Below the pieces are notes generated by a model. That model made no database searches and was not told the DNA's origin. It was given only the letters and a program-made list of their open reading frames with translations. From a virus: 20,298 nt of DNA. Positions 2-19,726 of this stretch are shown one piece after another; the stretch's first letter is position 1, and each line of letters begins with the position of its first letter. A program made the translations under genes and the position numbers. Location: positions 1 through 20,298 of IMG/VR virus record IMGVR_UViG_3300026510_000091. One strand, given 5' to 3'.

Positions 2-2329
2 TCAGGAACAGATAAGAACGCTTGGCAGACAGCTTTAAACATTGCATTTCTTACAGATAGTATAAACGATTTAACGGCAGAAGATGCTTACCAAATAAGT
101 CTTAATGGATTTTACTACACTGATGCAACAACGGCTAATTTACCCAACATCAATAAGGTGGGAATACTTCGTACTATAATAACACCAACTGAACGTTACC
201 TTACCTATTTAACAGTAGAAGGAGGGCGTCTTGTAATGTGGGCAAATAGGTACGATGGAACGACATGGGGAACATGGAATGCCTTAAGTGGAGGAGCTGC
301 GATTGACGTTACAACAGATACAACTAATTTCGTTACCTTATTATCTAACACAGATACAGATGTGCAGAAGGCGTTAGATACCTTAGATAAACATGTGCAT
401 AGTACTCTGTCTCAGCCAGATGGCACGAATCCTTTTGTCTATACAGATAACGGAGGAGCATTACATATAGACGGAGATATAATTCAAAATGGAGTAGCGT
501 ATGAGACGCATGTAGAACAAGTATTCTCTAAGAATGACCTGATTATCACAAGAGATGGAGCAGTAGGGGGATTAGGTACAGGAGAATACACAGGTATTCA
601 GGCAAATCTTTATGACGGTGTAAATAGTGGGCAATTAGTATTTGATAAGGACGGATGGGCAAGAGTAGGTGATGTAGGTAATCTTTTAAAATTAGCTACA
701 ATTACAGAAAACCCGACAGATGCACAGGTTGTAAGATGGGACGCTGCGACGAGTACACTGGTATCTATTCCTTTTGGGACGGTAGCAGGAACAATTTCAG
801 AAGGAAACCATACACACGCCTTGCTCCATCAGCAGAACACGGATTATAAGATAGAAAAATATGGAACTCCTATCATTACTTCCAACACAACAACAGGCAC
901 ATATGGGGCACAATTTACTGTCTTATACTACATTGCGACAGCTAATACCTTATTATCCAGTATTAAGGTATTTCTTGATACTGTAAATCAAACATCGTCT
1001 GTGGCTAATGTTGTAATAGACATATATGACCATGAATTCGGGTACCTTGAGGTACTTTCTGCAGGAACAGCAGGTAATTATTTAACCGGACAGGTTTATA
1101 GAGAAGAAGGGTTTACTATTACCGCAGGCAATGCTTCTGAGATATGGAATTTATCAAATCCTTTTCCAGTAGCTAATGGAAATAAATATTCTATCGTAAT
1201 CTATTCACAGGCAAGTCCTTTATATGGAAAAGAATTAATTTATTTTGATATCTCTTCCGATGCATCAGGCATGGTACAAAGATACGTAGGGTCAGATGGA
1301 ACGAATATAGTTGCAGACCCAAACACTTCTACACCAGGCACGACAACTAATTTATCGTATGAGATTACCTTACAATCACTTGCAAAGGTACAGTGTGATA
1401 CGACAGGATTAGTTAATGTAACAGGCATAATGAGAGCTACACAAACGCCCGCGATTACATCAGATTTAGATTACATTACAAAAGGTTGGGCAGATATTAA
1501 TAAGGAGGATACATTTACAAAGAATACGGCTTTTAATAAAAACTTTGGTACTGTGGCAGGTACGGTTGCGGAAGGTAATCATAATCATGTCGGAGTATAT
1601 GCAAATCTGAGTTCAGTTAATAACTTTACCAAGTATCAAAATACCTTCTTAGACATAAGATTAGGTGATACAACTTCAGGTTATACTGGAAGTATTGGTG
1701 TAAAAAATATGGCGGGAACAGGCGACGGGACTACATTGGGTTATACGACATATCTTACATACGATTTATTTTACGACAATGTAAACGATAATTGGGTAGC
1801 TTACAGGGGGACGTTGGGACGTAAGCAGTTGTTACTGATTGGATATCACGATGATGGCTTTAAATTTATGACTGCAGACCCAGCAAAAACAACATATACA
1901 TCTGCAGACTTTACAAAGATAATGCATGTTGTCGGCAGTACTAAAAGGGTGGCGATTGGGGACATCTTACCGACAGAGAAATTAGAAGTAGTAGGTAACA
2001 TAAAGGCATCAGGTACGATAACAGGTTCAGATATAAGATTAAAAACTGATATTAACCCATTAAATAAAGGAATAGACGGACTTAACCCTGTATCATACAG
2101 GCTTAAAGACACAGGGGAATTCTATTACGGGTTTATTGCCCAAGAGATGCTAAAGACACACCCTGAACTTGTTAAGGGTACGGGTAAAGAAAGAGAAGAT
2201 GGTACGATTGATTATTACGGAATAAAACAAGATGCCATAATTCCATTACTGGTTAAAGATGCACAAGATAAAGACATAAGAATTAAAGAATTAGAACAAA
2301 GAGTAATACTATTAGAAAAAACCGTTTAA
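2..2329 (+). CDS. Phage tail fibre/spike-type protein with C-terminal S74 self-cleaving chaperone (5' end outside window)
   Basis: The frame is open from base 2 with no stop, so the gene begins before the window; the GTG at 158 is only an internal codon. About 775 residues are visible. The body is rich in Thr, Gly, Asn and Asp, as in beta-structured fibres. The motif FGTVAGTxxEGNHxH occurs twice (773-817 and 1544-1588); GNHxH motifs in phage fibres often bind metal along a trimer axis. The last ~100 residues match the Peptidase_S74 intramolecular chaperone: SDIRLK holds the Ser and Lys (codons starting at 2027 and 2042, five residues apart) of the known Ser-Lys self-cleavage dyad, followed by GFIAQE and a C-terminal coiled coil (KDIRIKELEQRV). 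By family knowledge this domain drives trimer folding and then cuts itself off. Probably a receptor-binding or adjacent tail protein on the virion; the exact role cannot be told. Confidence 0.85.
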   Translation, partial: SGTDKNAWQTALNIAFLTDSINDLTAEDAYQISLNGFYYTDATTANLPNINKVGILRTIITPTERYLTYLTVEGGRLVMWANRYDGTTWGTWNALSGGAAIDVTTDTTNFVTLLSNTDTDVQKALDTLDKHVHSTLSQPDGTNPFVYTDNGGALHIDGDIIQNGVAYETHVEQVFSKNDLIITRDGAVGGLGTGEYTGIQANLYDGVNSGQLVFDKDGWARVGDVGNLLKLATITENPTDAQVVRWDAATSTLVSIPFGTVAGTISEGNHTHALLHQQNTDYKIEKYGTPIITSNTTTGTYGAQFTVLYYIATANTLLSSIKVFLDTVNQTSSVANVVIDIYDHEFGYLEVLSAGTAGNYLTGQVYREEGFTITAGNASEIWNLSNPFPVANGNKYSIVIYSQASPLYGKELIYFDISSDASGMVQRYVGSDGTNIVADPNTSTPGTTTNLSYEITLQSLAKVQCDTTGLVNVTGIMRATQTPAITSDLDYITKGWADINKEDTFTKNTAFNKNFGTVAGTVAEGNHNHVGVYANLSSVNNFTKYQNTFLDIRLGDTTSGYTGSIGVKNMAGTGDGTTLGYTTYLTYDLFYDNVNDNWVAYRGTLGRKQLLLIGYHDDGFKFMTADPAKTTYTSADFTKIMHVVGSTKRVAIGDILPTEKLEVVGNIKASGTITGSDIRLKTDINPLNKGIDGLNPVSYRLKDTGEFYYGFIAQEMLKTHPELVKGTGKEREDGTIDYYGIKQDAIIPLLVKDAQDKDIRIKELEQRVILLEKTV

Positions 2330-2995: not shown

Positions 2996-3099
2996 TACCT
3001 ATTATAATTATTGTAATTGTGTGTGTTGTAATATATGGGCTATTCACGATAGCCCCTATTATATACGACTTCTTTGTAGAATTGTTTAAAAAGAATTGA
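2980..3099 (+). CDS. Small single-span membrane protein (39 residues)
   Basis: ATG at 2980 to TGA at 3097-3099. The start is preceded by GGAG six to nine bases upstream, a rare visible ribosome site in this window. The protein begins MGTIVIPIIIIVIVCVVIYG, a clear membrane span (about residues 3-25), then a short soluble tail ending FFVELFKKN. It overlaps the preceding gene by 16 bases, as coupled phage genes often do, and overlaps the stop region of the opposite-strand gene at 3086 by 14 bases. The size and single span would suit a small lysis protein such as a holin or a spanin subunit, but this is inference. AT-rich DNA can encode hydrophobic ORFs by chance, so confidence is moderate. Confidence 0.5.
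   Translation: MGTIVIPIIIIVIVCVVIYGLFTIAPIIYDFFVELFKKN
3037..3055. terminator. Hairpin between convergent operons, possible bidirectional terminator
   Basis: A perfect 7 bp inverted repeat, GGGCTAT, loop of 5, ATAGCCC. It lies inside the 39-residue ORF and about 30 bases beyond the stop of the leftward operon at 3086. The flanks on both strands are AT-rich but lack a clean T tract, so termination is plausible from position rather than shown by sequence. Confidence 0.35.
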
Positions 3100-3730
3100 T
3101 ATTATGAGCATTATAAGAACTTACCTTGCTTATTTTCTTTTCTTTTTCTTTCTGCAATGTGACCTTATGTACCTCATCTGCATAGGCGGTTAAGGCGGGG
3201 TCGTGTGTTACAATTATAAACTGAATGTCTAATTTCTTACTAACCTCCTTAATCATACTTGACGCTTTTTCGCGTAAATCCTCACTTACAAACCTCATAG
3301 GCTCATCTAAGATAATTACATTACTTAACCGACTGGATAACGACCATAATGCAATTCTTAATGCGAATGCCGCAATATCTACAGCTCCTCCTCCTGATGC
3401 CAGTAATGGATTTATTCTGTGCTCTCCTCGTACGAAATACACATCACACTCCGTCTTATTCCTCCGTTGTATAAATTCAATTTCTAATCTATATGCATCA
3501 TCAAATACGGATTCCAATGCGATTGATGTAATGTCTGAGATATGGAATTGTAGTTGTTGTTGTGTATGCAGTCCAATTCCCCTAATTACCTCCTTTGCTT
3601 CTTCAAGATATTTTAGGTGTAGTTTTTCTTCTTTAAGAGCTCTTCTTGTAGAAGTAATTGACTTCTTTATATTTGCTCGTACCCCTTGCATTCTTTGTAA
3701 GGTGTTGTGTATATAATCTAATCTACTCAT
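3086..3730 (-). CDS. sbcC (C-half): C-terminal half of a split SbcC/Rad50-type ATPase
   Basis: 214 residues carrying only the C-lobe of an SMC/Rad50-type ATPase. Residues 1-50 are a charged coiled coil (the returning arm). Then comes the ABC signature region LLASGGGAVDIAAFALRIAL (about 109-128), Walker B VIILDEP (138-144) and the H-loop VTHD (His176). There is no Walker A, which sits in the separate gene at 5038-6084. In the SbcCD/Mre11-Rad50 family the two lobes meet to bind ATP and gate the nuclease, so this chain should assemble with the N-half. It starts inside the end of the coiled-coil gene (8-base overlap, ATGAGTAG), consistent with translational coupling. It ends the leftward operon and overlaps the rightward small ORF by 14 bases. 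Confidence 0.85.
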   Translation of the reverse strand: MSRLDYIHNTLQRMQGVRANIKKSITSTRRALKEEKLHLKYLEEAKEVIRGIGLHTQQQLQFHISDITSIALESVFDDAYRLEIEFIQRRNKTECDVYFVRGEHRINPLLASGGGAVDIAAFALRIALWSLSSRLSNVIILDEPMRFVSEDLREKASSMIKEVSKKLDIQFIIVTHDPALTAYADEVHKVTLQKEKEKKISKVSSYNAHNINSF

Positions 3731-3971
3731 TGTCAGCTATTTTATCTAATTCATCTTCTAACTCTATTGACAAAGTATCTATCTGTGTATCAATTTTTCT
3801 AATCTCACTTTCCATTTCTTCTAATTTTTTCCTTGCCTGTACAAGTGTTTTGCACCCCCATACATTCGCTAATTCTTCTTTGAGGTGCTTTTCTTTGCCT
3901 GATAATTCTGCCAATAATGTCTTTGCACCTTCAATTTCTTTTTGCAATCGTAGTAATTCTTTTTCGTTCAT
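3723..3971 (-). CDS. Free coiled-coil protein, probable missing arm segment of the split SbcC
   Basis: 82 residues, almost wholly charged heptad-like helix (LLRLQKEIEGAKTLLAEL and onward), with one Cys at about residue 40 and no catalytic motif. It sits between the 70-residue gene (ATGA overlap at 3968-3971) and the SbcC C-half (8-base overlap). The C-half frame is offset from this one, so the two are separate chains unless ribosomes shift frame. In an intact Rad50 protein, a returning coiled arm lies between the zinc hook and the C-lobe; by order and composition this ORF is the best candidate for that part. That assignment is inference. Alternatively it could be an unrelated helical phage protein. 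Confidence 0.65.
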   Translation of the reverse strand: MNEKELLRLQKEIEGAKTLLAELSGKEKHLKEELANVWGCKTLVQARKKLEEMESEIRKIDTQIDTLSIELEDELDKIADNE

Positions 3972-4180
3972 GATAGGTAATTTTTTAAAAGTTTATAAAA
4001 ATAGTCTCTTTTATCTCCCGCTACATGATGCAATAGAAACTCTAATTCCATGTAAGGAGCTTGCTTCTTCCAGTATGGATGCCTTGCTACAACGTGTTCT
4101 ATTAATTCTGTCCTTTCAGGGAAATCTTTCTTTCTTCTAATTCTCCCTCTTTTTAATTTAATAGGTTTTTTACGTTTCAT
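3968..4180 (-). CDS. Small very basic protein of unknown function
   Basis: 70 residues; the first 20 are mostly Lys and Arg (KRKKPIKLKRGRIRRKK), followed by a probably helical part with RHPYWKKQAPYMELEFLLHH. It overlaps the sbcD-like gene by 4 bases (ATGA at 4177-4180) and the coiled-coil gene by 4 bases. The charge suggests nucleic-acid contact, and the position inside the SbcCD group suggests an accessory role; neither is shown. No known family recognised. Confidence 0.6.
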   Translation of the reverse strand: MKRKKPIKLKRGRIRRKKDFPERTELIEHVVARHPYWKKQAPYMELEFLLHHVAGDKRDYFYKLLKNYLS

Positions 4181-5031
4181 TTTTGTAAAGATTTTAATAG
4201 AATATCCTTAACAGATTGATTTATAGACGTGTTACGTATGTATATTTCTATATTTTTTTCAAAAGAAATCTCATTATCTAATGACTGTCCTAATTTCTCA
4301 ATAAATGCATCTATTCTATTCATCTTCTGTTCTTTACGAATTAAGGACTTCTTATCAAATACATTATCTTTAATAGGAATATACTCTGCCAGTACCTTAT
4401 TTTCTTCTGCATTATACAGAAATACGCAAGGTTTATGCCTTTCTTGTGTTATGTTCATGCGGAAAATACTGCCAGGATTTACTAATAATCTGTCTTTATA
4501 CTCTTCGGTAAAGGTAAGATGATTATGTCCTGTTACAATTACATCGTAATTTCTATATTTTCGTAGTAATTTGATACTTTTGGGGTCTGTGCAATCATGC
4601 CAGGGCTTCTTGCCTTGATAAGTCATCACATGCCAGACCAATATAGAACGACCCTTGATATTAATCGTTTCTTGGGTAGGCACCTGCCCCCAGTGTGTTC
4701 CTTCTAATACCTTTATTTTACCTGCATTTTGCAACACACTAATACCTGTCTTATACTGCAATTCTAAATTATGTTGCGGTAGGTCATGGTTTCCATATAT
4801 AGTATAGAAATTGTCAGGTAAGTATTTTAAAGTATTAGCAAGAAGCATAGGAGAAGGCTTCCATGTATCAAATAAATCTCCTGAATGAATTATAGGGCAT
4901 TTATGTTTCTTTTGTAATTGAGCAATAAAGGATACCTTCTCCCATTGGACCTTATAGAAATCATCTATCCTATTAGTAGGAGGCTTCTCCCGCAAATGCC
5001 AATCACCTGTAAATATTGCGTCTATTTTCAT
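4177..5031 (-). CDS. sbcD: SbcD/Mre11-type nuclease
   Basis: 284-residue metallophosphoesterase. Metal-binding motifs appear in the family order: GDWH (Asp10, His12), HSGDLFD (Asp52), YGNHD (Asn81, His82), VWH (His134) and TGHNH (His169, His171), then NPGSIFR. The C-terminal ~70 residues form a short helical tail that would contact the ATPase. This matches SbcD/Mre11 and T4 gp47, which cut DNA ends and hairpins when paired with the SbcC/gp46 ATPase. The gene lies 6 bases after the SbcC N-half and is separated from the C-half by two small genes, so nuclease and ATPase parts are interleaved in one operon. It is shorter than bacterial SbcD (about 400 residues), typical for phage. Confidence 0.9.
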   Translation of the reverse strand: MKIDAIFTGDWHLREKPPTNRIDDFYKVQWEKVSFIAQLQKKHKCPIIHSGDLFDTWKPSPMLLANTLKYLPDNFYTIYGNHDLPQHNLELQYKTGISVLQNAGKIKVLEGTHWGQVPTQETINIKGRSILVWHVMTYQGKKPWHDCTDPKSIKLLRKYRNYDVIVTGHNHLTFTEEYKDRLLVNPGSIFRMNITQERHKPCVFLYNAEENKVLAEYIPIKDNVFDKKSLIRKEQKMNRIDAFIEKLGQSLDNEISFEKNIEIYIRNTSINQSVKDILLKSLQK

Positions 5032-5037
5032 ATTTTT

Positions 5038-6084
5038 TTATTTTTCTAAATTAGTACCACATAATGGACAAACAGGTGGAAAATTTGTTTTAAATTTACC
5101 TTCTAATTCATTAACCTTATTTCTTACGTTCTTACGCCTTTTCTCTATATCTGTAATGGTGTTGTATAGTTTTTGTAAGTTATTACAGGAGATTAAAGAT
5201 TTTTGCTTATTATATAGAAGTTCTAATAATGTGTTCACTTTACTTTTTAGGTTTACCTGTAATTGTAACTTCTGTATCCTTGCCTGTGTCTTATGTAATT
5301 GTAAACTAATTATGCGTAATTCTTTACCTTTCCGTAATATTTCTTTCTTCTTAGAGTATAAAGATAACATAGAATTAATAAATGTTTCTAATTCTACCTT
5401 ATTATTAAGGTACATAGAACGTGTAGATATCTTCTGTAATTCAGTGATAATAAAGGTAATTTTAGATTTTTCGTCCTGTAATTTAATTAATTGTTTTTCT
5501 TTATTACGTATATATTGCAATTGGTCAATAAGGGTGTCTAAGTCATTATACCTACTTAATTCCTGTCTTAACTCTTTTAAATTTTCGCTCAGATGGTCTT
5601 TTCTTTTCTTAACTTGATTTATTTGTCTTTGTACGTAAGATAAAGAAGTATCAATCTGTTCTAACCCAGCTAATTCGTTAAACTTCGCTGCTACCGTACC
5701 TGGGGTATCAGCTAAAATAAACGGAGCATCCATCTGTTTCTGTATGTTTATTTCATCTATTTTTAACACCTCCTGAATCTCATCAGGTACAGAATTACCA
5801 ATCGCATTAAATTCCTGATTATTAAGAATATAAAGATTTTTTGAATTAGTACGAATCCTGTGAATTATATTTTTATCAAGGTGTAGTGTAACCTGTGTAT
5901 CCCCTCCCCAGTTACTACGAAAGGCATCACCAGTAGGTTTATTATATAGTACCCATTGTAATGCCCTTATAATAGTGGTTTTCCCATTATCTGAACTACC
6001 TATAATTACATTCATTCCTTTATCGAACGTAACTACCGTATTCTTATGTGATTGAAAATTCTTTATTTCTACTTTTTTTATCAT
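5038..6084 (-). CDS. sbcC (N-half): N-terminal half of a split SbcC/Rad50-type ATPase, ending at the zinc hook
   Basis: 348 residues. The N-lobe has the Rad50-like start (IKNFQSHKNTVVTF) and Walker A GSSDNGKTT (29-37); the Q-loop region is near QKQMDAPF (115-122). Residues ~150-330 are a long coiled coil. The chain ends at FPPVCPLCGTNLEK, where Cys339-x2-Cys342 is the zinc-hook motif, six residues from the stop. An intact Rad50 would continue through a second coil to the signature motif and Walker B; here those are in the separate gene at 3086-3730. It starts with an ATGA overlap with the RuvC-like gene (6081-6084). The clean end right after the hook argues for a functional split rather than random decay. 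Confidence 0.87.
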   Translation of the reverse strand: MIKKVEIKNFQSHKNTVVTFDKGMNVIIGSSDNGKTTIIRALQWVLYNKPTGDAFRSNWGGDTQVTLHLDKNIIHRIRTNSKNLYILNNQEFNAIGNSVPDEIQEVLKIDEINIQKQMDAPFILADTPGTVAAKFNELAGLEQIDTSLSYVQRQINQVKKRKDHLSENLKELRQELSRYNDLDTLIDQLQYIRNKEKQLIKLQDEKSKITFIITELQKISTRSMYLNNKVELETFINSMLSLYSKKKEILRKGKELRIISLQLHKTQARIQKLQLQVNLKSKVNTLLELLYNKQKSLISCNNLQKLYNTITDIEKRRKNVRNKVNELEGKFKTNFPPVCPLCGTNLEK

Positions 6085-6632
6085 CTTGCTAAGATTTTAA
6101 CTATTGGAGATTTTTTTTTCGCTGTGTAGTAAATAGCTAATGCGTCCGCCACCGCCTCATCTCTGTACTTCGTCCCCGTCCATTGTACGATAAATAAAGA
6201 ATTTATTGCATCTATCATTTCTGCCTTAGTACAAGAACTTTTATTAAGGACTGTTCTTTTTGCGTCTTGTTCGCTGTACCATTCTATCGTAATCTCCTTT
6301 GCATCCGCTACCGCCTGCAATAATCCATTTACTAAACCTAAGGCAATCGCCGCCACCGCTGACTGGCTACCATGAGGAAGTTCTGAGACAATATGTTGTA
6401 CATTGTAGGTATCAATTATGCGTAGTAATTCGGACGTAATCTCAGATACCCTCCGCATTCTATCATCTCCTTTACGTATCCGTAATTTCTTTGAGACAGG
6501 TGCTGTCTTAATACAACCGCTTACAATTACTTTTCTTACGTGAGAATTAGCGGCTATAATAGCCCATCCAAACGCTGTGAGACTTGGGTCACATGTAAGT
6601 ACATGCACATATTCTTTTTTAGTCCTTTTCAT
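6081..6632 (-). CDS. ruvC: RuvC-like Holliday-junction resolvase
   Basis: 183 residues from the ATG at 6632, chosen because it gives a 4-base ATGA overlap with recA; an upstream in-frame ATG at 6683 would overlap recA by 55 bases. RNase H-fold motifs of the RuvC family are visible in order: CDPSLTAFGW (Asp15), IVSELPHG (Glu84) and YRDEAVADALAI (Asp158, Asp163), giving the four acidic metal ligands. By family knowledge it would cut four-way junctions made during recombination-dependent replication or before packaging. It sits between recA and the SbcCD group, as expected for a recombination operon. Confidence 0.8.
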   Translation of the reverse strand: MKRTKKEYVHVLTCDPSLTAFGWAIIAANSHVRKVIVSGCIKTAPVSKKLRIRKGDDRMRRVSEITSELLRIIDTYNVQHIVSELPHGSQSAVAAIALGLVNGLLQAVADAKEITIEWYSEQDAKRTVLNKSSCTKAEMIDAINSLFIVQWTGTKYRDEAVADALAIYYTAKKKSPIVKILAR

Positions 6633-7663
6633 CTTTTCTTCTTTGTCCGGGTTTGCTTGAATTTGTTTTGAATGCTTTCCCACAAGTCAATTACAGCCTC
6701 TTTTAATTGCTCTTCCATATCATTTTCTTCTACAAGACGAACAGAGGTATCTAATGACTTATCTAATTGAGTATCATCTACATAATAGACGGACGAAGAG
6801 GAATAATCTTTTAAAAATTGAAGATTAGCTCTTATGTCATCAATTCCATAATCAAACAGGATATATAGGTCTGCAGTACGGTAAGGGGCATCTACACTAT
6901 TCTTATATACCTCAACCTTTACCTTAGTACCTATCACCTTTGCAAATTCTTTGCCTTTCACCTTAATTTTTTTCTTTAATTTCTCCGGCTTATGAAATCT
7001 AAGACGTACACTACTATAGAAGGCAATAGCTTTGCCACCTGGTACGGTAAATTGTTCTCCGTAAGCTGATGCCCCAGCCTTTACTCTAATTTGGTTAGAA
7101 CATACCATTAAGTAATTTTCTTTCTTAAGTATGCGGGCGATTTTACGAAATCCTTCTGAAAATTCTTTTGCTCTCCGCATTCCCATTTTATCCCCATCAG
7201 GGTTATCCATTTCCATGTCGGTACTTAATGCGGCAAGACTATCAGTTAGAATTCCGTTTATCTTAGCATCGGATTTCGGCTGCCAATCCTGCACGCCGGA
7301 TATTACCTGTGTAACTGTATCAGGATTAGATACCTCAATATCTTCCATATCTAAATCAAACATCGCAGCGAACTGTGTGTTAAGGCGGGCTTCAGGGTCA
7401 TTAAATTTAATCTCTCCTCCTTGTCTCTGTATATACCCACCTATCTCACACAATAACACGGTTTTACCACTCCCTTCAGGACCAAATACTTCCATTAAAA
7501 TTCCTGATGGAATGCCCCCGCCTCTCTTACGTGTTCCACTGATAGCAAGGTCTAATAAGGTACTACCTGTACTTATCATTATTTCGTTATTTGCCTTTTC
7601 TTTCTTTGTCGTACGTTTCTTTAATTGTGTAGAAAGGGCAACTTCTTTATTTCGTCTAATCAT
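6629..7663 (-). CDS. recA: RecA-like recombinase
   Basis: 344 residues. Visible elements are Walker A GPEGSGKT (61-68), the FNDPEARL segment aligning with the RecA catalytic-glutamate region (Glu91), Walker B GILTDSLAAL (Asp141), the CSNQIR segment, and the L2-type loop VPGGKAIAFYSSVRLR (207-222). These are hallmarks of true RecA rather than a short Sak4-type protein, and the length is close to bacterial RecA. It would form filaments on single-stranded DNA and drive strand exchange. The C-terminus is acidic, then ends in a basic TRTKKKR tail. It overlaps the upstream ribbon-helix-helix gene by 8 bases and the RuvC-like gene by 4. Confidence 0.93.
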   Translation of the reverse strand: MIRRNKEVALSTQLKKRTTKKEKANNEIMISTGSTLLDLAISGTRKRGGGIPSGILMEVFGPEGSGKTVLLCEIGGYIQRQGGEIKFNDPEARLNTQFAAMFDLDMEDIEVSNPDTVTQVISGVQDWQPKSDAKINGILTDSLAALSTDMEMDNPDGDKMGMRRAKEFSEGFRKIARILKKENYLMVCSNQIRVKAGASAYGEQFTVPGGKAIAFYSSVRLRFHKPEKLKKKIKVKGKEFAKVIGTKVKVEVYKNSVDAPYRTADLYILFDYGIDDIRANLQFLKDYSSSSVYYVDDTQLDKSLDTSVRLVEENDMEEQLKEAVIDLWESIQNKFKQTRTKKKR

Positions 7664-11008: not shown

Positions 11009-11031
11009 CTTTTTAAAACTCTTTTAAAAAG
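11009..11031 (-). terminator. AT-only intrinsic terminator after the polymerase gene
   Basis: A perfect 10 bp inverted repeat, CTTTTTAAAA, loop GAG, TTTTAAAAAG, overlaps the polymerase stop codon and is followed on the minus strand by six Ts. The form is that of a rho-independent terminator, though an all-AT stem is weak; it may allow read-through. Confidence 0.5.
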
Positions 11032-13654
11032 GTGTTATGAATTCAGGAGAATACTCCTTTCTTTCTGCCCAACTGCCATCTACTGGACTTACTTCCGCAT
11101 CAATGGATAAAGGTACATTTATCCATTTAAACGCCTCGGGTAATTGAACCGTCGCAATGTAGGTAATGATGTTGTAAATATGTTCTAATTCTGTTGGGTG
11201 TACGTCTAATACTATTGCATCATGTATTTGTCCTACTATTTTAGAACGCATTTTTCTTGCCCGTAAAGCCTTATCTACTTCAATAAATGTCCATAGCAAG
11301 CAATGGAAGGCAGCGCCTTGAACAGGGTAGTTTATCACATCATTTCGTCCCATTACCCCTTGCACTACAAATCCAGTATATAAAGATGAATAACCATTCT
11401 TAAGATATTGTGAGTAATGCTTCTTTTTCCAATTATTATATACCTTAAATCTGTTATTCCAAAAATCGTACTCTATATCTTTAAGATGATTTTCAAAATC
11501 TGTGTATGATTTGATACCTACATTGATTAGGTGCTCTGCAATAGACATCTTCTTATTAAGAGGCACTCCCATATCCTTTTTCCATTTACCTTGTGGGAGA
11601 TGTAACCAATTGCTACACATATTATTTGCATTATTAGCATAATAATCTCCGTAGAATTGAGGGAAAATAAACGAATTCTTTGTTGCTGCTCTTAATAGGT
11701 TATGTTCAGGTAGATGTCTATCAAAGTCAGGTATTTTAAAAATCTGTTTCGCTGTATCTCCGTGCATATCAGTACCTTTATCTGTAAGATATTTAATCAT
11801 AATAGGGTCCTTATGATAACATGCAGCGATTGAAACTTCTAATCCTGAGAAATCCATTTCTAAGAATTGATGACCTGGTCTTGGTATAATAGCTCCTCTA
11901 ACTATTTTCATTGCCTTTTTATCCCTTTTAGGAATATTTTGGAAATTAGGGTTTGATGAACTGCTCCTATACGTACGGGCAAGGTGCAAATTAAAGAAAG
12001 GATGCAGCACTCCATTTACCTGTTCTCGTTCAAATGCAGTTAAATAGGTATCTCGTATCTTTAATAATTTTGTTCTTTCTAAAATCCACTTTAATTCTTC
12101 TATGTTCAGCATTTGCAATGCTTCTTCGTCTGTACTGCCTTTTCCTGTGTCTGTTAATTTCTTAGGAGTAATCTTCTTGACAATATATAAGAAGTGTCCT
12201 AATTGTGTACCGCTATTAAGATTGGGAGTGCCTTTTGTAGTGTGCTTCCAATGTCTGTAGAATGAACTGGCATAGATTTTCTTTTCTAATAACTCTATTT
12301 TTTTAGTCAATCTATGTTTTTGCTTAGAAATGTACGAAAGGTCAATTCTAAGCCCGTTTCTTTCTGCTCTGGCTAATGACAATATACCTTTATGGAAAAG
12401 TGTGTAGGCATTAGGAAAATTGCTATTTCTTGGAGATAAATAAGTCTCTCCTTGTGTTCCTATTATATACTTCCTTTGTAGCATTGATAAACGGTATTGG
12501 AAAATACTGTCATAGGCGCAATATTTAAGCACTTCCTTACCTATTACAGGGTCATCCATTACATTAGGGAGGTTATTCAGTGCATTCGCATTATTTTTCT
12601 CCTTAGATTTTAGATATGGACTTACATCACTATCGTAATCTATTATTCCAAAATTAACATAGGTCTGAAATTTTAAACCGCTTATGCCTTGTCTATTGTC
12701 TATTATGTGTGCCGCTTGCATACTGTCCCACAACCAATTCTTTACAGGTACTTTTAATCGTACGTTTGTCCATGTATCTTCGAATTTTATGTTATGAGCC
12801 ATTTTACCTACTTCTTCACGCTGCATTAAATCAGTAAAAGGTTTTCTTTTACTTCTATTTGTAGGCATTTTAAAGGTATATACTTTATCCTCTGAAATTG
12901 CCAAACTTGCACACACTATTCTATGTCCTTTTGCGTGAGGCTTTAATCCCGTTGTCTCATAGTCAAATGCAACGTTTCCTACCGTTATCTTATCGAAAAT
13001 TGATAAATCATCATCAAGATAGATTATCTCAGGCTCATGATATTTTCTAAAAGGAATAGTCAAATGTTGAACAGCCTTCTTTAAATCCTGCTTAAAAATA
13101 ACCTCCTCCACCTTATTAGTAGAAGATAATACCTTATTTACGTCTAACATAGGAGCAATCCATGTAGATAATACCTGGTCAGGTATTACAAAACCTCTCC
13201 ATTTATTTATATTCCCTAAATCTTTTTTCCATCTATTTCCAATTAAAGAATACAATGAAGTATCCCCAAAGAATACTATTAATTTAGGTCGTATTTCATC
13301 TATTACATGCATTAGTCTTTTACGACATGCTATTATTTGCGCCGTAGTAGCTTGTTTTTCTGTGTAACAACTTACTCCGTAGGTATTCACACAATCTTTG
13401 TCTAAGTCAATTCCGACCTCATCATAAACCTTTTTAAGGAACCTTGCGTCCTTACTTCTAAAAACCTTGCCTGTCTTGTCATCAATGGCAGAGGGAGAAG
13501 GAAATACATTAAGTATTCCTTTCTCTCCTGCTCCTGATGTAGTCAATTTAGGGTTACTACATTTCTTAGATAACCCACAAGATACACAAGAGTATATTTT
13601 CCCATCAGGGTGGGCTGTGCTTCGCACCTGTTTCTTTGTGAAGAACCCACTCAT
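11024..13654 (-). CDS. polA: Family A DNA polymerase with N-terminal UDG-like domain
   Basis: 876 residues from the ATG at 13654, which overlaps the clamp stop as TAATG; an upstream ATG at 13687 would overlap the clamp gene by 34 bases. Residues ~15-180 resemble a family 4 uracil-DNA glycosylase: Cys23, Cys26 (or Cys32), Cys96 and Cys110 in SCVSCGLSKKC, GVSC and IIACRKRL suit its iron-sulphur ligands, and RPKLIVFFGD follows. Residues ~225-390 are a 3'-5' exonuclease (Exo I DYE, Asp231/Glu233; Exo II HNIKFED; Exo III YCAYD, Asp382). The polymerase palm has motif A DFSGLEVS (Asp601, Glu606), motif B RAATK to FYG (Arg655, Lys659, Tyr668) and motif C IHDAI (His811, Asp812). SPO1-type phages are known to have UDG-PolA fusions. 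The glycosylase site looks degenerate. Confidence 0.9.
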   Translation of the reverse strand: MSGFFTKKQVRSTAHPDGKIYSCVSCGLSKKCSNPKLTTSGAGEKGILNVFPSPSAIDDKTGKVFRSKDARFLKKVYDEVGIDLDKDCVNTYGVSCYTEKQATTAQIIACRKRLMHVIDEIRPKLIVFFGDTSLYSLIGNRWKKDLGNINKWRGFVIPDQVLSTWIAPMLDVNKVLSSTNKVEEVIFKQDLKKAVQHLTIPFRKYHEPEIIYLDDDLSIFDKITVGNVAFDYETTGLKPHAKGHRIVCASLAISEDKVYTFKMPTNRSKRKPFTDLMQREEVGKMAHNIKFEDTWTNVRLKVPVKNWLWDSMQAAHIIDNRQGISGLKFQTYVNFGIIDYDSDVSPYLKSKEKNNANALNNLPNVMDDPVIGKEVLKYCAYDSIFQYRLSMLQRKYIIGTQGETYLSPRNSNFPNAYTLFHKGILSLARAERNGLRIDLSYISKQKHRLTKKIELLEKKIYASSFYRHWKHTTKGTPNLNSGTQLGHFLYIVKKITPKKLTDTGKGSTDEEALQMLNIEELKWILERTKLLKIRDTYLTAFEREQVNGVLHPFFNLHLARTYRSSSSNPNFQNIPKRDKKAMKIVRGAIIPRPGHQFLEMDFSGLEVSIAACYHKDPIMIKYLTDKGTDMHGDTAKQIFKIPDFDRHLPEHNLLRAATKNSFIFPQFYGDYYANNANNMCSNWLHLPQGKWKKDMGVPLNKKMSIAEHLINVGIKSYTDFENHLKDIEYDFWNNRFKVYNNWKKKHYSQYLKNGYSSLYTGFVVQGVMGRNDVINYPVQGAAFHCLLWTFIEVDKALRARKMRSKIVGQIHDAIVLDVHPTELEHIYNIITYIATVQLPEAFKWINVPLSIDAEVSPVDGSWAERKEYSPEFITPF

Positions 13655-14661
13655 TACTGCCTTTTTAACATAGATAAATACTTCCAATCGGTGTCAGAAA
13701 AGAACATCCTGTCAGTAGCTAATATAGCTTTATTTGTTCTCGACAAGATGTCTTTAAGTAAATAGGGAGTTATCTTAAATTCTATCTGCTCTCCTTTGTA
13801 TGTAACTCTCATTTTTTCCTCGTACCAACCGCCCGTCTCACTTTCACTTCTTACAATTAATGCACCTTTCTTTAAGATTAAAGAAATCGTCTCGTCTAAC
13901 ATATGTTCTCGCTTACTGAATACACCTGCCCTTTCTATTACATCTATTAGATTTTCAGGCAGTGTTATATCTTTTCCTTGCATTTCAAAGAATACAGAAG
14001 TATCAGGAAATTTATCCTCAAAAACTCTACAACTTATCACGCAGGAATCTTTTGTCTTAAAGTGAACCCAACCTTTTGTAATCGCTATCTTAATAGGAGA
14101 CATACGAGCAACCTTAATCGCTATATGTGCAGGTAAAAGAAAGTCCACAACCTGCATCTCTTCAGATAAGGTGTAATTAGCAATTCTATAATTATCTGAA
14201 CCTTCCATCTTAGTACTGGTAACATGTACACACGTAAGAACGGGGGTACTCATGTTTGTAGAACATGCTCCTGCCGTGAACTGTAATGCGGTATTGAAAT
14301 TCTCAGGTAAATGTACCCATTTTTTCTTTACGTTTATCTCTTCAAGTGGAAGCATTATTTCTTTAATTAAAGTAAACCCAGCCTTAGACCTACCAGCCTT
14401 AAACACAATTTGGGTATCTTCCTGTTCTACATTTATTTCTTCTGTATTTATCTTGTTCACGTAGGTAAACAATTCAGAAGCAGCAATCGCACCTATAATA
14501 GGTAGATTTACAGGACTTTGAATACTCATTTCGTCGTTGTAGGATATTACCTTATTATCTTTGAATACAAAGTAGGTGGATTGCTCAATTAGCTCTTTCG
14601 TAGCTACTGCAGGCCTAACAAATGTCAGTGCCTTTAATAATTCATTCTTATTTATTTTCAT
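13654..14661 (-). CDS. dnaN: Sliding clamp (DNA polymerase III beta-like)
   Basis: 335 residues with a DnaN-like opening (MKINKNELLKALTFVRPAVATK) and repeated beta-rich segments, e.g. LPENFNTALQF and LPENLIDVIERA, as expected for a ring of similar subdomains. The end, KAILATDRMFFSDTDWKYLSMLKRQ in two pieces, resembles the clamp C-terminus where the partner groove lies, though the bacterial MPMRL ending is absent. No catalytic residues are expected. It follows dpdA with an ATGA overlap and touches the polymerase start (TAATG), forming a clamp-polymerase pair. I rate family membership as probable because clamps diverge strongly. Confidence 0.72.
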   Translation of the reverse strand: MKINKNELLKALTFVRPAVATKELIEQSTYFVFKDNKVISYNDEMSIQSPVNLPIIGAIAASELFTYVNKINTEEINVEQEDTQIVFKAGRSKAGFTLIKEIMLPLEEINVKKKWVHLPENFNTALQFTAGACSTNMSTPVLTCVHVTSTKMEGSDNYRIANYTLSEEMQVVDFLLPAHIAIKVARMSPIKIAITKGWVHFKTKDSCVISCRVFEDKFPDTSVFFEMQGKDITLPENLIDVIERAGVFSKREHMLDETISLILKKGALIVRSESETGGWYEEKMRVTYKGEQIEFKITPYLLKDILSRTNKAILATDRMFFSDTDWKYLSMLKRQ

Positions 14662-15632
14662 ATGAATAATGTATTTTGCTTATTAATTTTAAATTGTTCT
14701 TGCGAATGTAATTTCTCATAGGTATTAAAAAAAGAAATATTAACCGCATTTCTTATTAGATATGAATTAACTACTCCCTCCTTTAGGATTACCTTTACAC
14801 GAAGTTTCTGCGAGTCCACGAACTTCTCATTCTTATTAAGAACATACCCCTTTTCTACGTTTTTCCATTCAGATTCCCCCAGTACATATCCAATACTTTC
14901 AAGGTATTCTTGTATTATTTTTTTCTGTAAAGGTGGGTAAGAATTATAATGTGCTCCTTTTATATTAATTTGAGGAGAATCATCAGATATCACACATGTA
15001 TAGGGTTTTTTATAAGAAAATCTACCATTAATTTTATTAGGCACAAATATCTTACCGGTGATGCCTGTCATTAACCAATATGTGCTATCTACAGAATGCC
15101 ACGGGTATCTGTTCATTAATGAGAACGACGTTACTCCAAATCCATGTACCTTTACCTCCTTACCTATTCTATTAATCTCAGAAAAGCAATAATCTAAGAA
15201 TTGCGTTCTTTCTGTAGAACCGTACCCACTTGCGGTACCGCCTATACAAAAATATGGGTACTTATCAATACACCTATGTAGATACTTAACAGGCTCCATT
15301 ATGTGGAAAACAGGTAAAGGAGAAAATCCATTACGTTCCATTATACGTTGATTGCGCCAGGTTCCTTTAACATCTCCGATTACATCAAGATTTGGATAAA
15401 TTGTGATATACTCTTTATTATCCTCAATAAATTGCATATATGCATCTAAAGAGATAGTAACACCTTTAGATTTTGCACTATAGGCGCCTGAATCTAAGAA
15501 TAAATTCCTATTTTTCCAATGAGCGCCTAACTTAGGTTTATCAAAGAATGATAGTAATCTATTATGTATCATTCTCTCCCAACCTATTTTCTCAGGATTG
15601 GATGATGCACTTCCAGCAAGGTAAATCCTCAT
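14658..15632 (-). CDS. dpdA: DpdA-like DNA guanine transglycosylase (TGT paralogue)
   Basis: 324 residues. Tied to the tRNA-guanine transglycosylase fold by FLDSGAYSA (45-53, aligning with the TGT DSGGF substrate site), NLDVIGD (81-87), PVFH (107-110), CIGGTASGYG (129-138), VHGFGVTS (162-169) and SVDS (180-183), where Asp182 is the likely nucleophile. The Cys-rich zinc site of tRNA-type TGT is not seen. DpdA enzymes swap guanine in DNA for preQ0-type bases, which protects phage DNA from restriction. The neighbours supply that base: folE (ATGA overlap), queC, queD and queE. The C-terminal ~100 residues (from about 225) carry no motif I know and may bind DNA. Confidence 0.82.
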   Translation of the reverse strand: MRIYLAGSASSNPEKIGWERMIHNRLLSFFDKPKLGAHWKNRNLFLDSGAYSAKSKGVTISLDAYMQFIEDNKEYITIYPNLDVIGDVKGTWRNQRIMERNGFSPLPVFHIMEPVKYLHRCIDKYPYFCIGGTASGYGSTERTQFLDYCFSEINRIGKEVKVHGFGVTSFSLMNRYPWHSVDSTYWLMTGITGKIFVPNKINGRFSYKKPYTCVISDDSPQINIKGAHYNSYPPLQKKIIQEYLESIGYVLGESEWKNVEKGYVLNKNEKFVDSQKLRVKVILKEGVVNSYLIRNAVNISFFNTYEKLHSQEQFKINKQNTLFI

Positions 15633-16222
15633 TTTGTAAGATTTAAAAATTCTTGTCTAACTTCTTGTTTTTCAATAAAAATTCCTGTTAGACGTGTAGT
15701 AGTCATTGTGCCTTGTTTCTTTGCTCCTCGCATGGTCTTACAAAGATGTTCTCCTTGCATCATAAGAGCAATGCCTAAAGGAGGATAGGTATCATCTAAT
15801 GCCTTTTCGATGTACCGAACAATCTCAGCCACAAGACGTTCCTGTATTTGTAACTTCGCACTGAAATAATCCACGGTACGAGCAATTTTGGACAAGCCTA
15901 ATAATTTGCCTTTTGGGTGCGGTATGTACGCGAACCAATACCTACCGAAAAAAGGCAACATGTGGTGTTCGCATTGTGAATGAAACGTTCCAGTATCTAC
16001 AATCATCTGGTCGTAGATTATTCCGTCATTTCCGTTTCTGAATGTTGTTATTTTAGGAGCTTGTTGCGGGTCATATCCTTTAAAAAGCTCCCCCCACATA
16101 CGAACAACACGTTCAGGAGTACCTTGCAAACCTTCACGTTCAGGATTTTCTCCTATTTCTTTCAATAACTGGCGAATAACTTTTTCACTTTCTTTCGCCT
16201 GTATAGGATTATTTGTTTTCAT
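15629..16222 (-). CDS. folE: GTP cyclohydrolase I
   Basis: 197 residues, the usual length. FolE converts GTP to dihydroneopterin triphosphate, the first step to 7-deazaguanine. Zinc and active-site motifs are CEHHMLPF (Cys84, His87) and GEHLCKTMRG (His159, Cys161), with GLSKIAR (109-115) and QERL (127-130). The start gives an ATGA overlap with the sulfotransferase-like gene and the end overlaps dpdA by 4 bases, so it is translated as part of the modification operon. A phage copy would raise precursor flux during infection. Confidence 0.96.
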   Translation of the reverse strand: MKTNNPIQAKESEKVIRQLLKEIGENPEREGLQGTPERVVRMWGELFKGYDPQQAPKITTFRNGNDGIIYDQMIVDTGTFHSQCEHHMLPFFGRYWFAYIPHPKGKLLGLSKIARTVDYFSAKLQIQERLVAEIVRYIEKALDDTYPPLGIALMMQGEHLCKTMRGAKKQGTMTTTRLTGIFIEKQEVRQEFLNLTK

Positions 16223-16827
16223 TTAAAATGTATTTTAGAAGAATCAAATAAATCCTTCCATATAGAAAGACTTAATGTAATTCCGGTTAATGTCTCAATT
16301 TCAAGAATAGTTCTTTTAATGTCGTCTATAGGAAAAGGAACAATGATGTACCTGAACCCATACCTATTAAAAAGTGCCAAACTCTCCGTATAATTAGCGG
16401 TTAAGGTAGGTATGTCCTGATTAAGTAATATCGAATCTTCTTCTAAGAACTCTTTTCTTGAATTCTTAGAAGTAACAACCTTATTAATATCCCTTTGCAT
16501 TACGATGAATAGGTCTTTATTGCCTCTGATTTTATTCCATTGTTTTACGAACTCAGGCAACATCGTAAGATAACTGAATTTCCCTACTGTGGATTTTAAT
16601 TGTGAGAAATCCTCAAATCTTTGCTTATATATAGAGTCCCAATATGTAGAGAATGGGAATCTGGGGTCTCCTGTATAAGCTCTAAAAAAATTACATATAT
16701 CGGGATGTTCTAACCCACCTTCGATTCTATTATCCCAAAAATTAGAACCTACATCAATTCCATTTTTTTGGAAAAACTTTGCCATTAAGGAGGTACCGCT
16801 TCTTTGCGTTCCTGTAATTACTATCAT
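16219..16827 (-). CDS. P-loop sulfotransferase-like protein
   Basis: 202 residues. Begins IVITGTQRSGTSLMAKFF: the GTQRSGTS loop (6-13) is the 5'-phosphosulfate binding loop typical of sulfotransferases. A second motif, QRDINKVVTS (111-120), fits the R-D-P-x-x-V-x-S 3'-phosphate binding pattern. Together these favour a PAPS-dependent sulfotransferase fold over a nucleotide kinase. The gene is smaller than most sulfotransferases and I cannot identify the catalytic base. It lies between queC and folE with 4-base overlaps on both sides, so it is made together with the base-modification enzymes. It may act on the modified base, a sugar or a host molecule; this is unknown. It could also be a divergent P-loop kinase. 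Confidence 0.65.
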   Translation of the reverse strand: MIVITGTQRSGTSLMAKFFQKNGIDVGSNFWDNRIEGGLEHPDICNFFRAYTGDPRFPFSTYWDSIYKQRFEDFSQLKSTVGKFSYLTMLPEFVKQWNKIRGNKDLFIVMQRDINKVVTSKNSRKEFLEEDSILLNQDIPTLTANYTESLALFNRYGFRYIIVPFPIDDIKRTILEIETLTGITLSLSIWKDLFDSSKIHFK

Positions 16828-17471
16828 AATGCAGGGTCTTTTAGGTTAGCCAATTCAAATCCTTCGGCACGTTCTACGCAAGCCGCACATACTCCACATG
16901 GAATTTCATTTGATGTATAACAGGTTCGTGTTAATTCAAAAGGTACCTTAAGTAGGTGTCCTTTTTGAATTATGTGTTTTTTATACAGATTCACAAACGG
17001 GGTTAATATGTTTACCTTACCTGATGTGGATGCCAAAACGGCAGATGTAACATTATGTAGAAAATCTGGTCTACAATCAGGGTATATATAATTATCCCCG
17101 GCATGTACTCCTAAGGCGATATATTTCGCCTTTATGTTGTCAGCTATGCTCGCAAGTATAGATATAAATATTAGATTTCTACCTGGGACAATAGTATTTG
17201 CCATAATACTATCCGTATAATGTCCTTTAGGAATCTCCGTATCAGAATTTAATAAAGAGGACGTCGTGCCTTTAAAAATAGAGGAGACGTCTATTACACG
17301 TAATTGCATACCTAAAAGGGATATAATGTCCTCCGCAGCTCTTTTTTCTATATCATTATGTTTACTACCGTAGGTAAAAAACACAGGATGTACCTCATAA
17401 GACTCCTTAAGAGTGTATAAAAGAGTGGTTGAATCTAATCCCCCACTCATACTAATTACTACCTTATCCAT
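16824..17471 (-). CDS. queC: 7-cyano-7-deazaguanine (preQ0) synthase
   Basis: 215 residues. QueC turns carboxy-deazaguanine into preQ0 using ATP and ammonia. The PP-loop SGGLDS (9-14) binds ATP, TIVPGRNL (93-100) is a family motif, and the zinc site is four cysteines, Cys184, Cys192, Cys195 and Cys198, in TCYTSNEIPCGVCAAC. The length is normal and there is no glutamine amidotransferase fusion. It starts 2 bases after the repeat-protein gene and overlaps the sulfotransferase-like gene by 4 bases. Confidence 0.96.
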   Translation of the reverse strand: MDKVVISMSGGLDSTTLLYTLKESYEVHPVFFTYGSKHNDIEKRAAEDIISLLGMQLRVIDVSSIFKGTTSSLLNSDTEIPKGHYTDSIMANTIVPGRNLIFISILASIADNIKAKYIALGVHAGDNYIYPDCRPDFLHNVTSAVLASTSGKVNILTPFVNLYKKHIIQKGHLLKVPFELTRTCYTSNEIPCGVCAACVERAEGFELANLKDPAL

Positions 17472-17473
17472 AA

Positions 17474-18199
17474 TTATTTATTTTTTTTTGCGATTGCGGG
17501 CAAGGCGGTGCCTTTACTCCATTTTTTAATCCATTGGGTAATAGTTTTTTCCTGTACCTTCCCCTTGCATAACTTATGTAGGTATTTTACGTCAGAATTG
17601 CCTTTATCCCATGCCATCCAGATAATTGCTTTATTTGATAAAGCACCACCCTTTTTGGTATCATCCTTTTTGGCATCATCCTTTTTGGTATCATCCTTTT
17701 TGGTATCATCCTTTTTGGTATCATCCTTTTTGGTATCATCCTTTTTGGTATCAGCCTTTTTGGTATCAGCCTTTTTGGTATCATCCTTTTTGGTATCAGC
17801 CTTTTTGGCATTTTCGTTTCGTGTACGAGCAAGCATAGCTAACATTTTATCGCGTAATTTTTCGATATCTTTTTGCACGCCAAGACCTTTACGAATTGAC
17901 TTAAATTCGTCCTCTTGCTTAATAATACTTTTTAATACATTTATATCCGTTGCTTGCTCAATTTGTTCTTCAAGACTTAACTCATCGAATGATACTTCAT
18001 CGACAGCGGCTGTTAATTCTTTTATAACTGCTTGTGTTTTTGTACTCAATTCCTCTTCTTCCCCCTCATCCAGTAGCCCGATTGCTTCTTTTACAAGTGC
18101 TTCTAAAGTTTCTTGGTTTTGTTTTACATCAATAGGGGGTTCAATGGCTAAAAACTGGTTTAGCTCTTTTGCTGCTTTTTTAATGTCAATTAATTTCAT
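17474..18199 (-). CDS. Lys/Asp repeat protein with C-terminal basic helical domain
   Basis: 241 residues. The N-terminal ~125 are acidic, helical and probably coiled (LDEGEEEELSTKTQAVIKEL). Residues 135-184 are ten 5-residue units, mostly DTKKD or DTKKA. The last ~55 residues are basic with Trp and Lys (IIWMAWDKGN, TITQWIKKWSKG) and look like a small helix-turn-helix domain. No enzyme motif. It could be a DNA-binding or scaffold protein with a flexible charged linker; unknown. It opens the queC-folE-dpdA gene run, behind the structured spacer at 18200-18310, so it may be the first product of that transcript. The start ATG at 18199 follows an A-rich leader related to those before two other small genes. 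Confidence 0.75.
   Translation of the reverse strand: MKLIDIKKAAKELNQFLAIEPPIDVKQNQETLEALVKEAIGLLDEGEEEELSTKTQAVIKELTAAVDEVSFDELSLEEQIEQATDINVLKSIIKQEDEFKSIRKGLGVQKDIEKLRDKMLAMLARTRNENAKKADTKKDDTKKADTKKADTKKDDTKKDDTKKDDTKKDDTKKDDAKKDDTKKGGALSNKAIIWMAWDKGNSDVKYLHKLCKGKVQEKTITQWIKKWSKGTALPAIAKKNK
17648..17797 (-). repeat. 15 bp minisatellite, 10 units
   Basis: Ten tandem 15-base units inside the 241-residue gene; on the plus strand each reads roughly TTTTTGGTATCATCC with single-base changes (GCATC, CAGCC). It stays in frame and encodes D-T/A-K-K-D/A/G. Slippage here would change the linker length by five residues at a time without a frameshift. Confidence 0.95.
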
Positions 18200-18224
18200 T
18201 TTTTTAATTTTTAAGATGAATAAT
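18197..18224 (-). promoter_or_regulatory. A-rich leader before the repeat-protein ATG (degenerate third copy)
   Basis: On the minus strand it contains TTATTCATCTTAAAAATTA and runs into the ATG at 18199. It resembles the better conserved leaders at 18507-18532 and 20136-20162. Confidence 0.35.
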
Positions 18225-18237
18225 AAATTTTTTAGAA

Positions 18238-18293
18238 TTTTGTAAGTTTTTATAAAAGTAAGGGGAGGAACTTACAAAAACCTGCCCCTTACT
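18238..18293 (-). ncRNA. Interleaved inverted repeats: candidate pseudoknot or attenuator RNA
   Basis: Two inverted repeats overlap in A-B-A'-B' order. Stem 1 pairs 18281-18293 with 18257-18268 (minus strand AGTAAGGGGCAGG with CCTCCCCTTACT; 12 bp with one bulged C). Its loop (18269-18279, TTTTGTAAGTT) is exactly complementary over 11 bases to a downstream tail at 18238-18248 (AACTTACAAAA). The RNA could form an H-type pseudoknot, or switch between two exclusive hairpins; stem 1 is followed by four Ts, so it could also terminate. It begins 18 bases after the 49-residue ORF and ends about 40 bases before the repeat-protein gene. The pairing is seen in the sequence; the function is inference. 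Confidence 0.6.
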
Positions 18294-18295
18294 GC

Positions 18296-18310
18296 CCTTT
18301 TTTAAAAAGG
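18296..18310 (-). terminator. Short AT palindrome directly after the 49-residue ORF
   Basis: CCTTTTTAAAAAAGG on the minus strand abuts the stop codon at 18311. The same kind of CC-T-run/A-run palindrome follows queE and the polymerase gene. Weak alone; stem 1 of the neighbouring structure is the stronger terminator candidate. Confidence 0.3.
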
Positions 18311-18460
18311 TTACAATGTTATTACCGTTAATGTGCATTCGATGTTAAAATCTGCGATTATCATTGAGGTAGTACGATTTATAAATTCGTCAATCGTTTC
18401 CCCGTACATTGCCGAGTATATACTACCTCTAAAATGCATTTCTAATCCGTATTTTTCCAT
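18311..18460 (-). CDS. Small hypothetical protein (49 residues)
   Basis: ATG at 18460 to TAA at 18311. It reads MEKYGLEMHFRGSIYSAMYG, then ETIDEFINRTTSMIIAD, and ends FNIECTLTVITL. The pattern of strand, acidic helix and strand looks like a small alpha-beta fold, and composition resembles other genes here. It overlaps the 26-residue ORF in another frame by 32 bases, and no ribosome site is visible, so it may depend on coupling to that ORF. Function unknown. Confidence 0.5.
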   Translation of the reverse strand: MEKYGLEMHFRGSIYSAMYGETIDEFINRTTSMIIADFNIECTLTVITL

Positions 18461-18509
18461 TCTTAATTAGTGCCGCTTCTTTTTGATTAATTCTTCTAAT
18501 GGTTGCCAT
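18429..18509 (-). CDS. Possible 26-residue leader ORF
   Basis: ATG at 18509 to TAG at 18429-18431, encoding a basic peptide that starts MATIRRINQKEAALIKNGK. Its ATG sits exactly at the end of a leader that is nearly identical to that before the 90-residue gene at 20138, which supports real initiation here. It may be a short protein or a leader peptide that brings ribosomes to the 49-residue ORF. Confidence 0.35.
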   Translation of the reverse strand: MATIRRINQKEAALIKNGKIRIRNAF

Positions 18510-18532
18510 AATTGTAAGTTTTTAAATGAATA
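18507..18532 (-). promoter_or_regulatory. Conserved leader before the 26-residue ORF
   Basis: On the minus strand TATTCATTTAAAAACTTACA, then ATTATG. Apart from one added A and one T/C change it is the same as the leader at 20136-20162. It probably belongs to a translation or transcription start signal used by the phage for early-type small genes. Confidence 0.5.
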
Positions 18533-18554
18533 AATAATTTTTGTTTTGTTGGTG

Positions 18555-18589
18555 CAAAAAGTAAAGGATAATTTTGTAAACGACAAAAT
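18555..18589 (-). promoter_or_regulatory. Promoter-like site with a dyad over the -33 region
   Basis: Minus strand TTTG (18584-18587), 20 bases, then TACTTTTTG (18563-18555), close to the Bacteroidota TTTG/TAnnTTTG pattern with one extra base in the -7 element. The -33 part lies in a perfect 7 bp dyad, ATTTTGT, 5 bases, ACAAAAT (18571-18589), that could be an operator. It would drive the short ORFs and the repeat-protein/queC/folE/dpdA group. Confidence 0.4.
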
Positions 18590-18599
18590 CTTTTTAAAA

Positions 18600-18627
18600 C
18601 TTTTTTTAAAAAAATTTAAAAAAAAGG
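18600..18627 (-). terminator. AT-rich terminator-like hairpin after queE
   Basis: Starts at the base after the queE stop. On the minus strand C and seven Ts (18626-18619) can pair with seven As and G (18607-18600), followed by GTTTTAAAAAGATTTT. The stem is almost all A-T, so strength is doubtful; position and likeness to the polymerase-end hairpin support it. Confidence 0.4.
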
Positions 18628-19380: not shown

Positions 19381-19726
19381 ACCTGGCAGTAGTTTTAGGT
19401 GTTTCACTTACTGTTACGGCGGATACCTGCCATACCATTTGTTTGAATTTTTCGTAAAAATATTTTGCCATATTTTCCGCCGAAGGCTGTTCAAACGGCA
19501 ATACATCATTTAAGAATGTGTGGTCTAACGTGTTGTCAATCCACTCTTTAATAGGTTGTAACTCGTGGTAATCGACCACAAATCCGTCTTTATTAAGAAC
19601 GGCGTTACGTAATTCCACAGTAACGATATAATTATGCCCGTGTACTGTCATGCACGGATGCCCGTCTTCCAGGTTAAGGAGGCGGTGAGCTGCCGCAAAT
19701 TCAAATTCTTTTGTAATTGTGTACAT
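19361..19726 (-). CDS. queD: 6-carboxy-tetrahydropterin synthase
   Basis: 121 residues, typical for QueD. It converts dihydroneopterin triphosphate (from FolE) to carboxy-tetrahydropterin. Zinc ligands are His14 (AAAHRL), His29 and His31 (VHGHNY); Cys25 (HPCMTVHGH) is the catalytic cysteine; LDHTFLND (68-74) supplies the catalytic Asp/His; Glu108 in VSETP binds the pterin. It overlaps queE by 20 bases, suggesting coupled translation. It follows a 139-base spacer. Confidence 0.95.
   Translation of the reverse strand: MYTITKEFEFAAAHRLLNLEDGHPCMTVHGHNYIVTVELRNAVLNKDGFVVDYHELQPIKEWIDNTLDHTFLNDVLPFEQPSAENMAKYFYEKFKQMVWQVSAVTVSETPKTTARYEPNIN

Follow-up and report, generated by a model that had tools for sequence, protein, structure and literature searches.

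Can an SbcC/Rad50 ATPase work as separate chains, its polypeptide ending at the zinc hook and its second lobe encoded by another gene? The question is raised by a locus on the minus strand of the window, the 20,298-nucleotide stretch of viral DNA analyzed here. Judged from sequence, with a probability of about 0.8, the locus encodes a multi-chain SbcCD (Mre11-Rad50) belonging to a phage recombination module.

Gene content of the divided locus

In order of transcription, all on the minus strand, the genes encode a RecA/UvsX-like recombinase (positions 6629-7663), a RuvC-like Holliday junction resolvase (6081-6683), SbcC-N (5038-6084; 348 aa), an SbcD/Mre11-like nuclease (4177-5031; 284 aa), a basic protein (3968-4180; 70 aa), SbcC-M (3723-3971; 82 aa), and SbcC-C (3086-3730; 214 aa). 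The recombinase and resolvase were assigned by family searches and are, respectively, a conserved and a frequent upstream neighbor in related loci. Genes overlap by 8, 4, and 4 bases from SbcC-C through SbcC-M and the basic protein to SbcD; a gap of 6 bases separates SbcC-N from SbcD, and the SbcC-N and RuvC genes overlap by 4 bases.

The original prediction, of an SbcC divided just after its hook with all motifs intact and few-base overlaps between genes, proved accurate in every coordinate and motif. SbcC-N has a Rad50 N-lobe with Walker A (GSSDNGKT), a helical arm, and a CxxC hook (CPLC, residues 339-342), and the chain ends six residues later. SbcC-C is a Rad50 C-lobe with ASGGG, VIILDEP, and VTHD and lacks Walker A. 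The 82-residue coil, SbcC-M, lies just before the C-half, and SbcD and the basic protein lie between the halves. The locus has the N-lobe, the C-lobe, the hook-tipped arm, and the nearby SbcD of an SbcC/Rad50 system, without the joining of both lobes in one chain.

Profile alignment to SbcC identified both halves as Rad50 lobes. SbcC-N matched Pfam AAA_23 (E value of 1.5e-18 in a family search) and the SbcC family phrog_77 (2.6e-16), aligning at the phrog_77 N-lobe and arm, and a profile search aligned the N-half with solved Rad50 at 6.7e-19. SbcC-C matched phrog_15167, annotated as “ATPase” (2.7e-21), as well as the far C-terminal end of phrog_77, and its alignment with solved Rad50 in the profile search had an E value of 1.1e-15; the match to SMC_N (1.1e-6) fell short of the curated cutoff of that family. 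Approximately 45 residues of helix precede the C-lobe in SbcC-C.

The catalytic residues are nearly invariant among relatives. Walker A residues G29, G34, and K35 are present in 80/80 N-halves, with T36 occupied by T or S, and the Q-loop glutamine (Q117) is found in 79/80; the two hook cysteines are retained in 78/80 and 79/80. Every C-half (86/86) has the Walker B DE and the signature glycines Gly113 and Gly115, the residue between them being glycine in 66/86, and the ABC signature reads [SA]GxG, not LSGGE. The H-loop histidine is present in 77/86 C-halves and absent in 9/86.

SbcD matched calcineurin-like phosphoesterases (1.2e-13 in a family search) and carries all five phosphoesterase metal motifs of SbcD/Mre11 intact (D10, H12, D52, N81-H82-D83, H134, H169, and H171); it is a presumptive nuclease. 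D10, H12, D52, H82, D83, H134, and H171 are present in 82/82 related proteins. Two motif positions vary in these relatives: Gln replaces the Asn of GNHD in 40/82, and Asp takes the place of the first GHxH histidine in 58/82; the window retains N81 and H169. A paper on mimivirus R555 reports a similar His-to-Asp change.

The basic 70-residue protein does lie between the halves, as originally described. It occurs in only about one in four related loci and is probably an accessory protein, not part of the core enzyme. T4 46.1 and 46.2, which lie between gp47 and gp46, were considered as counterparts of the coil and the basic protein and matched neither. Elsewhere in the window, positions 11024-13687 encode a DNA polymerase of family A whose N-terminal domain is uracil-DNA glycosylase-like (PF03167; 1e-6). 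Positions 14658-19726 encode queuine transglycosylase-like, GTP cyclohydrolase I, QueC, radical SAM, and 6-pyruvoyl tetrahydropterin synthase proteins, probably a set of deazaguanine DNA modification genes. The gene at the left edge (2-2329, plus strand) resembles, by eye, a tail fiber with a peptidase_S74-like end.

Arm, hook, and SbcC-M

The position of the hook at the end of the chain is general: in all but two of 77 distinct N/coil pairs, the CxxC lies 2 to 21 residues from the C terminus of the N-chain. In one exception (L085) no CxxC was found, and in the other (L012) a NUMOD4-HNH domain is fused behind the hook. The AlphaFold2 model of SbcC-N (mean pLDDT of 87.9) has a helix at 141-177, a short break at 178-181, and a helix at 182-334 that runs to the hook, with no fold-back of the arm. 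The best solved-structure match of this model was the separately expressed Rad50 N-lobe chain of 1f2u (2.8e-7).

On the preferred reading, SbcC-N and SbcC-C would associate noncovalently to form one ABC ATPase head, as the separately expressed Pyrococcus Rad50 lobes do in crystals, and two such heads would enclose ATP between them and bind a dimer of SbcD. The arm would consist of one long SbcC-N helix, and two SbcC-N hooks would pair through zinc. SbcC-M would be a small separate helical subunit, probably packed against the arm where a covalent return strand would otherwise lie. Closing of the heads, driven by ATP, would then gate SbcD, so that DNA ends are processed for the neighboring RecA/UvsX and RuvC proteins.

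The role of SbcC-M is the point on which a more conventional interpretation is possible, one that we regard as somewhat improbable: SbcC-M could be the detached return strand, the three chains rebuilding an ordinary antiparallel SbcC arm with no mechanistic consequence. This would account for the location of the SbcC-M gene just before the C-half and for the proximal helix retained by the C-half, the predicted arm break at 178-181 falling about where that helix would end. In addition, the summed length of the pieces resembles that of T5 D13 (612 aa). Against it, the model predicted for SbcC-M has helices at 3-36 and 43-81 joined by a conserved loop (pLDDT of 96.3; pTM of 0.61), most likely forming a hairpin. 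This model had no fold match in the PDB, and the SbcC-M profile produced weak matches to assorted coiled coils only, including a Rad50 fragment at an E value of 0.26.

Variation in arm length also counts against a detached return strand. SbcC-N arms consist of two to four repeats, each exactly 47 residues long (consensus lklEk.Vn.LL.L...k..L......L..LI..Ie.ieeeIe...kl), and their autocorrelation peaks at 47. With a 47-wide profile, which overlooked units in some proteins, the spacing was 47 in 99/105 neighboring pairs. Hook positions cluster near 294, 343, and 386, matching the expectation for two, three, and four units. Coil and C-half lengths remain constant as the arm varies by these units (arm length versus coil length, r = 0.10; versus C-half length, r = 0.005). 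Since SbcC-M does not lengthen with the arm, a single SbcC-M cannot pair with the full length of the arm in every member. For the same reason, the suggestion that the pieces add up to one SbcC is correct as arithmetic and weak as evidence. The free coil is indeed conserved beside the C-half; calling it a conserved two-helix subunit in its own right fits better than treating it as the part lost from the middle of SbcC.

A modular arm is a more speculative and rather unlikely extension of the preferred reading: each 47-residue repeat might dock its own SbcC-M, giving a countable noncovalent row that replaces the return strand. If so, the row of SbcC-M would set arm length and permit the arm to be assembled or remodeled, unlike any known Rad50 or SMC arm.

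Relatives in phages and plasmids

Pattern scans of IMG/VR for C-half relatives retrieved first 26 and then 348 viral contigs; a single-protein SbcC-N query against IMG/VR gave no match. A bacterial genome scan with the closer alignment set (A4) found the C-half in only six contigs of metagenome-assembled genomes. The search for the same gene order in phage genomes that had been proposed with the original prediction recovered N-half, SbcD, (basic protein), coil, and C-half in separate frames in 99/113 mapped records, repeated contigs included. Mapped split loci lie mostly beside RecA and often RuvC, yield 77 distinct N/coil sequence pairs with separate genes, and include no single reading frame holding both lobes. 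A full-length sbcC elsewhere in the genome would have spoken against a split enzyme; because the window is a 20 kb fragment, its absence was judged only in the window's relatives, and none of 25 contigs of 53-101 kb contained one, each having one N-half and one C-half. For the C-half and coil, dN/dS was approximately 0.15-0.18, an estimate from few usable pairs with high dS. The split arrangement is old and conserved, and the proposal of a working split enzyme rather than decay is supported at the sequence level by the 77 pairs, the conservation of the break behind the hook, the near-invariant catalytic residues, and the lack of a full-length alternative in the 25 long contigs.

More distant members vary in arrangement. 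Bacillus phage vB_BboS-125 has the N-half, an AP2 gene, a small helical gene, the C-half, and an unannotated SbcD, and Microcystis phage Mvi-JY20 has the N-half, SbcD, a 94-residue protein, and the C-half. The coil profile gives weak matches or none to the small helical genes of these more distant members, which are considered SbcC-M counterparts by position, size, and helicity. In the 485 kb phage LR745208 the halves are approximately 8 kb apart, and in Microbacterium phage Magritte, whose N-half is without CxxC, Tunturiibacter phage Tunturi_5, and one metagenome-assembled contig they are far apart. Plasmids also carry the system: an Alkaliphilus plasmid has SbcD, N-half, coil, and C-half in a row, Geobacillus and Paenibacillus plasmids have SbcD fused to the N-half with coil and C-half separate, and the B. 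velezensis p3 plasmid has N-half, coil, C-half, another gene, and SbcD.

Proteobacterial megaplasmids, from Pseudomonas, Variovorax, Bosea, Acidiphilium, and Alteromonas as well as Leaf58, encode a circularly permuted single chain consisting of C-lobe, N-lobe, arm, and CxxC. One permuted chain used as a tblastn query matched 21 plasmid records. Six permuted loci were inspected (L140-L145). Pattern searches located both motifs in four chains, and in each of these Walker B comes before Walker A. An SbcD-like gene lies after the permuted chain and, except in Alteromonas, a small gene (approximately 97-140 residues) precedes it; the small genes of Pseudomonas, Variovorax, Bosea, Acidiphilium, and Leaf58 are helical. 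The SbcD match is weak beside the Pseudomonas, Leaf58, and Alteromonas chains, and these proteins may have lost activity. The joining of the lobes in permuted chains is the strongest sequence evidence that N- and C-lobes form one head.

These relatives bear on whether the halves might act apart, SbcC-N as a hook protein with a structural or regulatory role and SbcC-C as a separate ATPase-like factor, with no shared head. The distance between the halves in Magritte, Tunturi_5, and the metagenome-assembled contig is what such independence would predict. Yet each lobe has only half of the catalytic residues and both sets are near-invariant, every long contig checked has one N-half and one C-half, and permuted relatives join both lobes in one chain, making separate action highly improbable. 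That a single sbcC gene has decayed, or was wrongly sequenced or assembled, might be suspected in a metagenomic fragment but has a negligible probability: the same separate genes recur across dozens of independent contigs, two cultured phages (vB_BboS-125 and Mvi-JY20), and complete plasmids, and relatives show signs of purifying selection. Frameshifting that rejoins the halves was ruled out because SbcD sits between them.

A tree of concatenated lobes separates the split and permuted forms from T4 gp46, T5 D13, E. coli SbcC, and one bacterial SbcC. A single origin of split and permuted forms is suggested, not proven, as bootstrap support is only 69%. The homing-endonuclease domain fused directly behind the SbcC-N zinc hook in L012 (411-2003) and the AP2 gene immediately after the hook-bearing N-half of vB_BboS-125 are compatible with endonuclease-linked gene splitting, homing endonuclease insertion being a known route to split phage genes (PMC2988022).

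Comparison with known systems

Rad50 is usually pictured as passing signals between head and hook via a continuous two-stranded arm. A chain that stops at the hook, together with permutants joined at the head, suggests that arm connectivity is dispensable, and with small, separately expressed parts the contributions of head, arm, and hook can each be tested directly. The enzyme has been overlooked in phage and plasmid genomes because its pieces are annotated as “exonuclease,” “ATPase,” “ParA,” or “hypothetical.” In PHROG, family 16465 (“exonuclease”) matches the N-half type and a different family, 15167, the C-half type; their entries are silent on the two being parts of one enzyme. The papers found in the open literature describe neither a split nor a permuted SbcC, and as far as found the arrangement is undescribed.

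E. coli SbcCD, T4 gp46/47, T5 D13/D12, and archaeal Rad50 have in common with the window the head motifs, the long arm, the CxxC hook, the SbcD partner, and the recombination neighborhood. T4 gp46, T5 D13, and E. coli SbcC each consist of one chain; the original prediction said the same of phage gp46 and bacterial SbcC. In known SbcC/Rad50 proteins one chain runs through the hook, whereas in the window the chain stops there, another gene supplies the C-lobe, and a small helical subunit is added. The lobes of Pyrococcus furiosus Rad50cd (1F2T, 1F2U, and 1II8) are likewise separate chains, A and B, in one crystal structure; that split is an artificial construct, and the split in the window is natural.

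Among viral fold matches of the window's N-half, an SbcD-SbcC fusion from Bacillus phage 0305phi8-36 (A7KV18) ranked second (3.1e-14). A 2011 report describes one ATPase segment as missing from this fusion (PMC3175470), in which respect it appears to resemble the Paenibacillus fusion. It differs from the window in the fusion of its N-half to SbcD, and no C-lobe gene is mentioned in the passages that describe it (PMC3175470). Other divided phage enzymes, Aeh1 NrdA, T4 topoisomerase gene 60, and gene 43A/43B, have chains that cooperate, some having arisen via homing endonuclease insertion (PMC2988022). Those splits are described from single phages or close groups, whereas the SbcC split occurs in phages of several host phyla and in plasmids.
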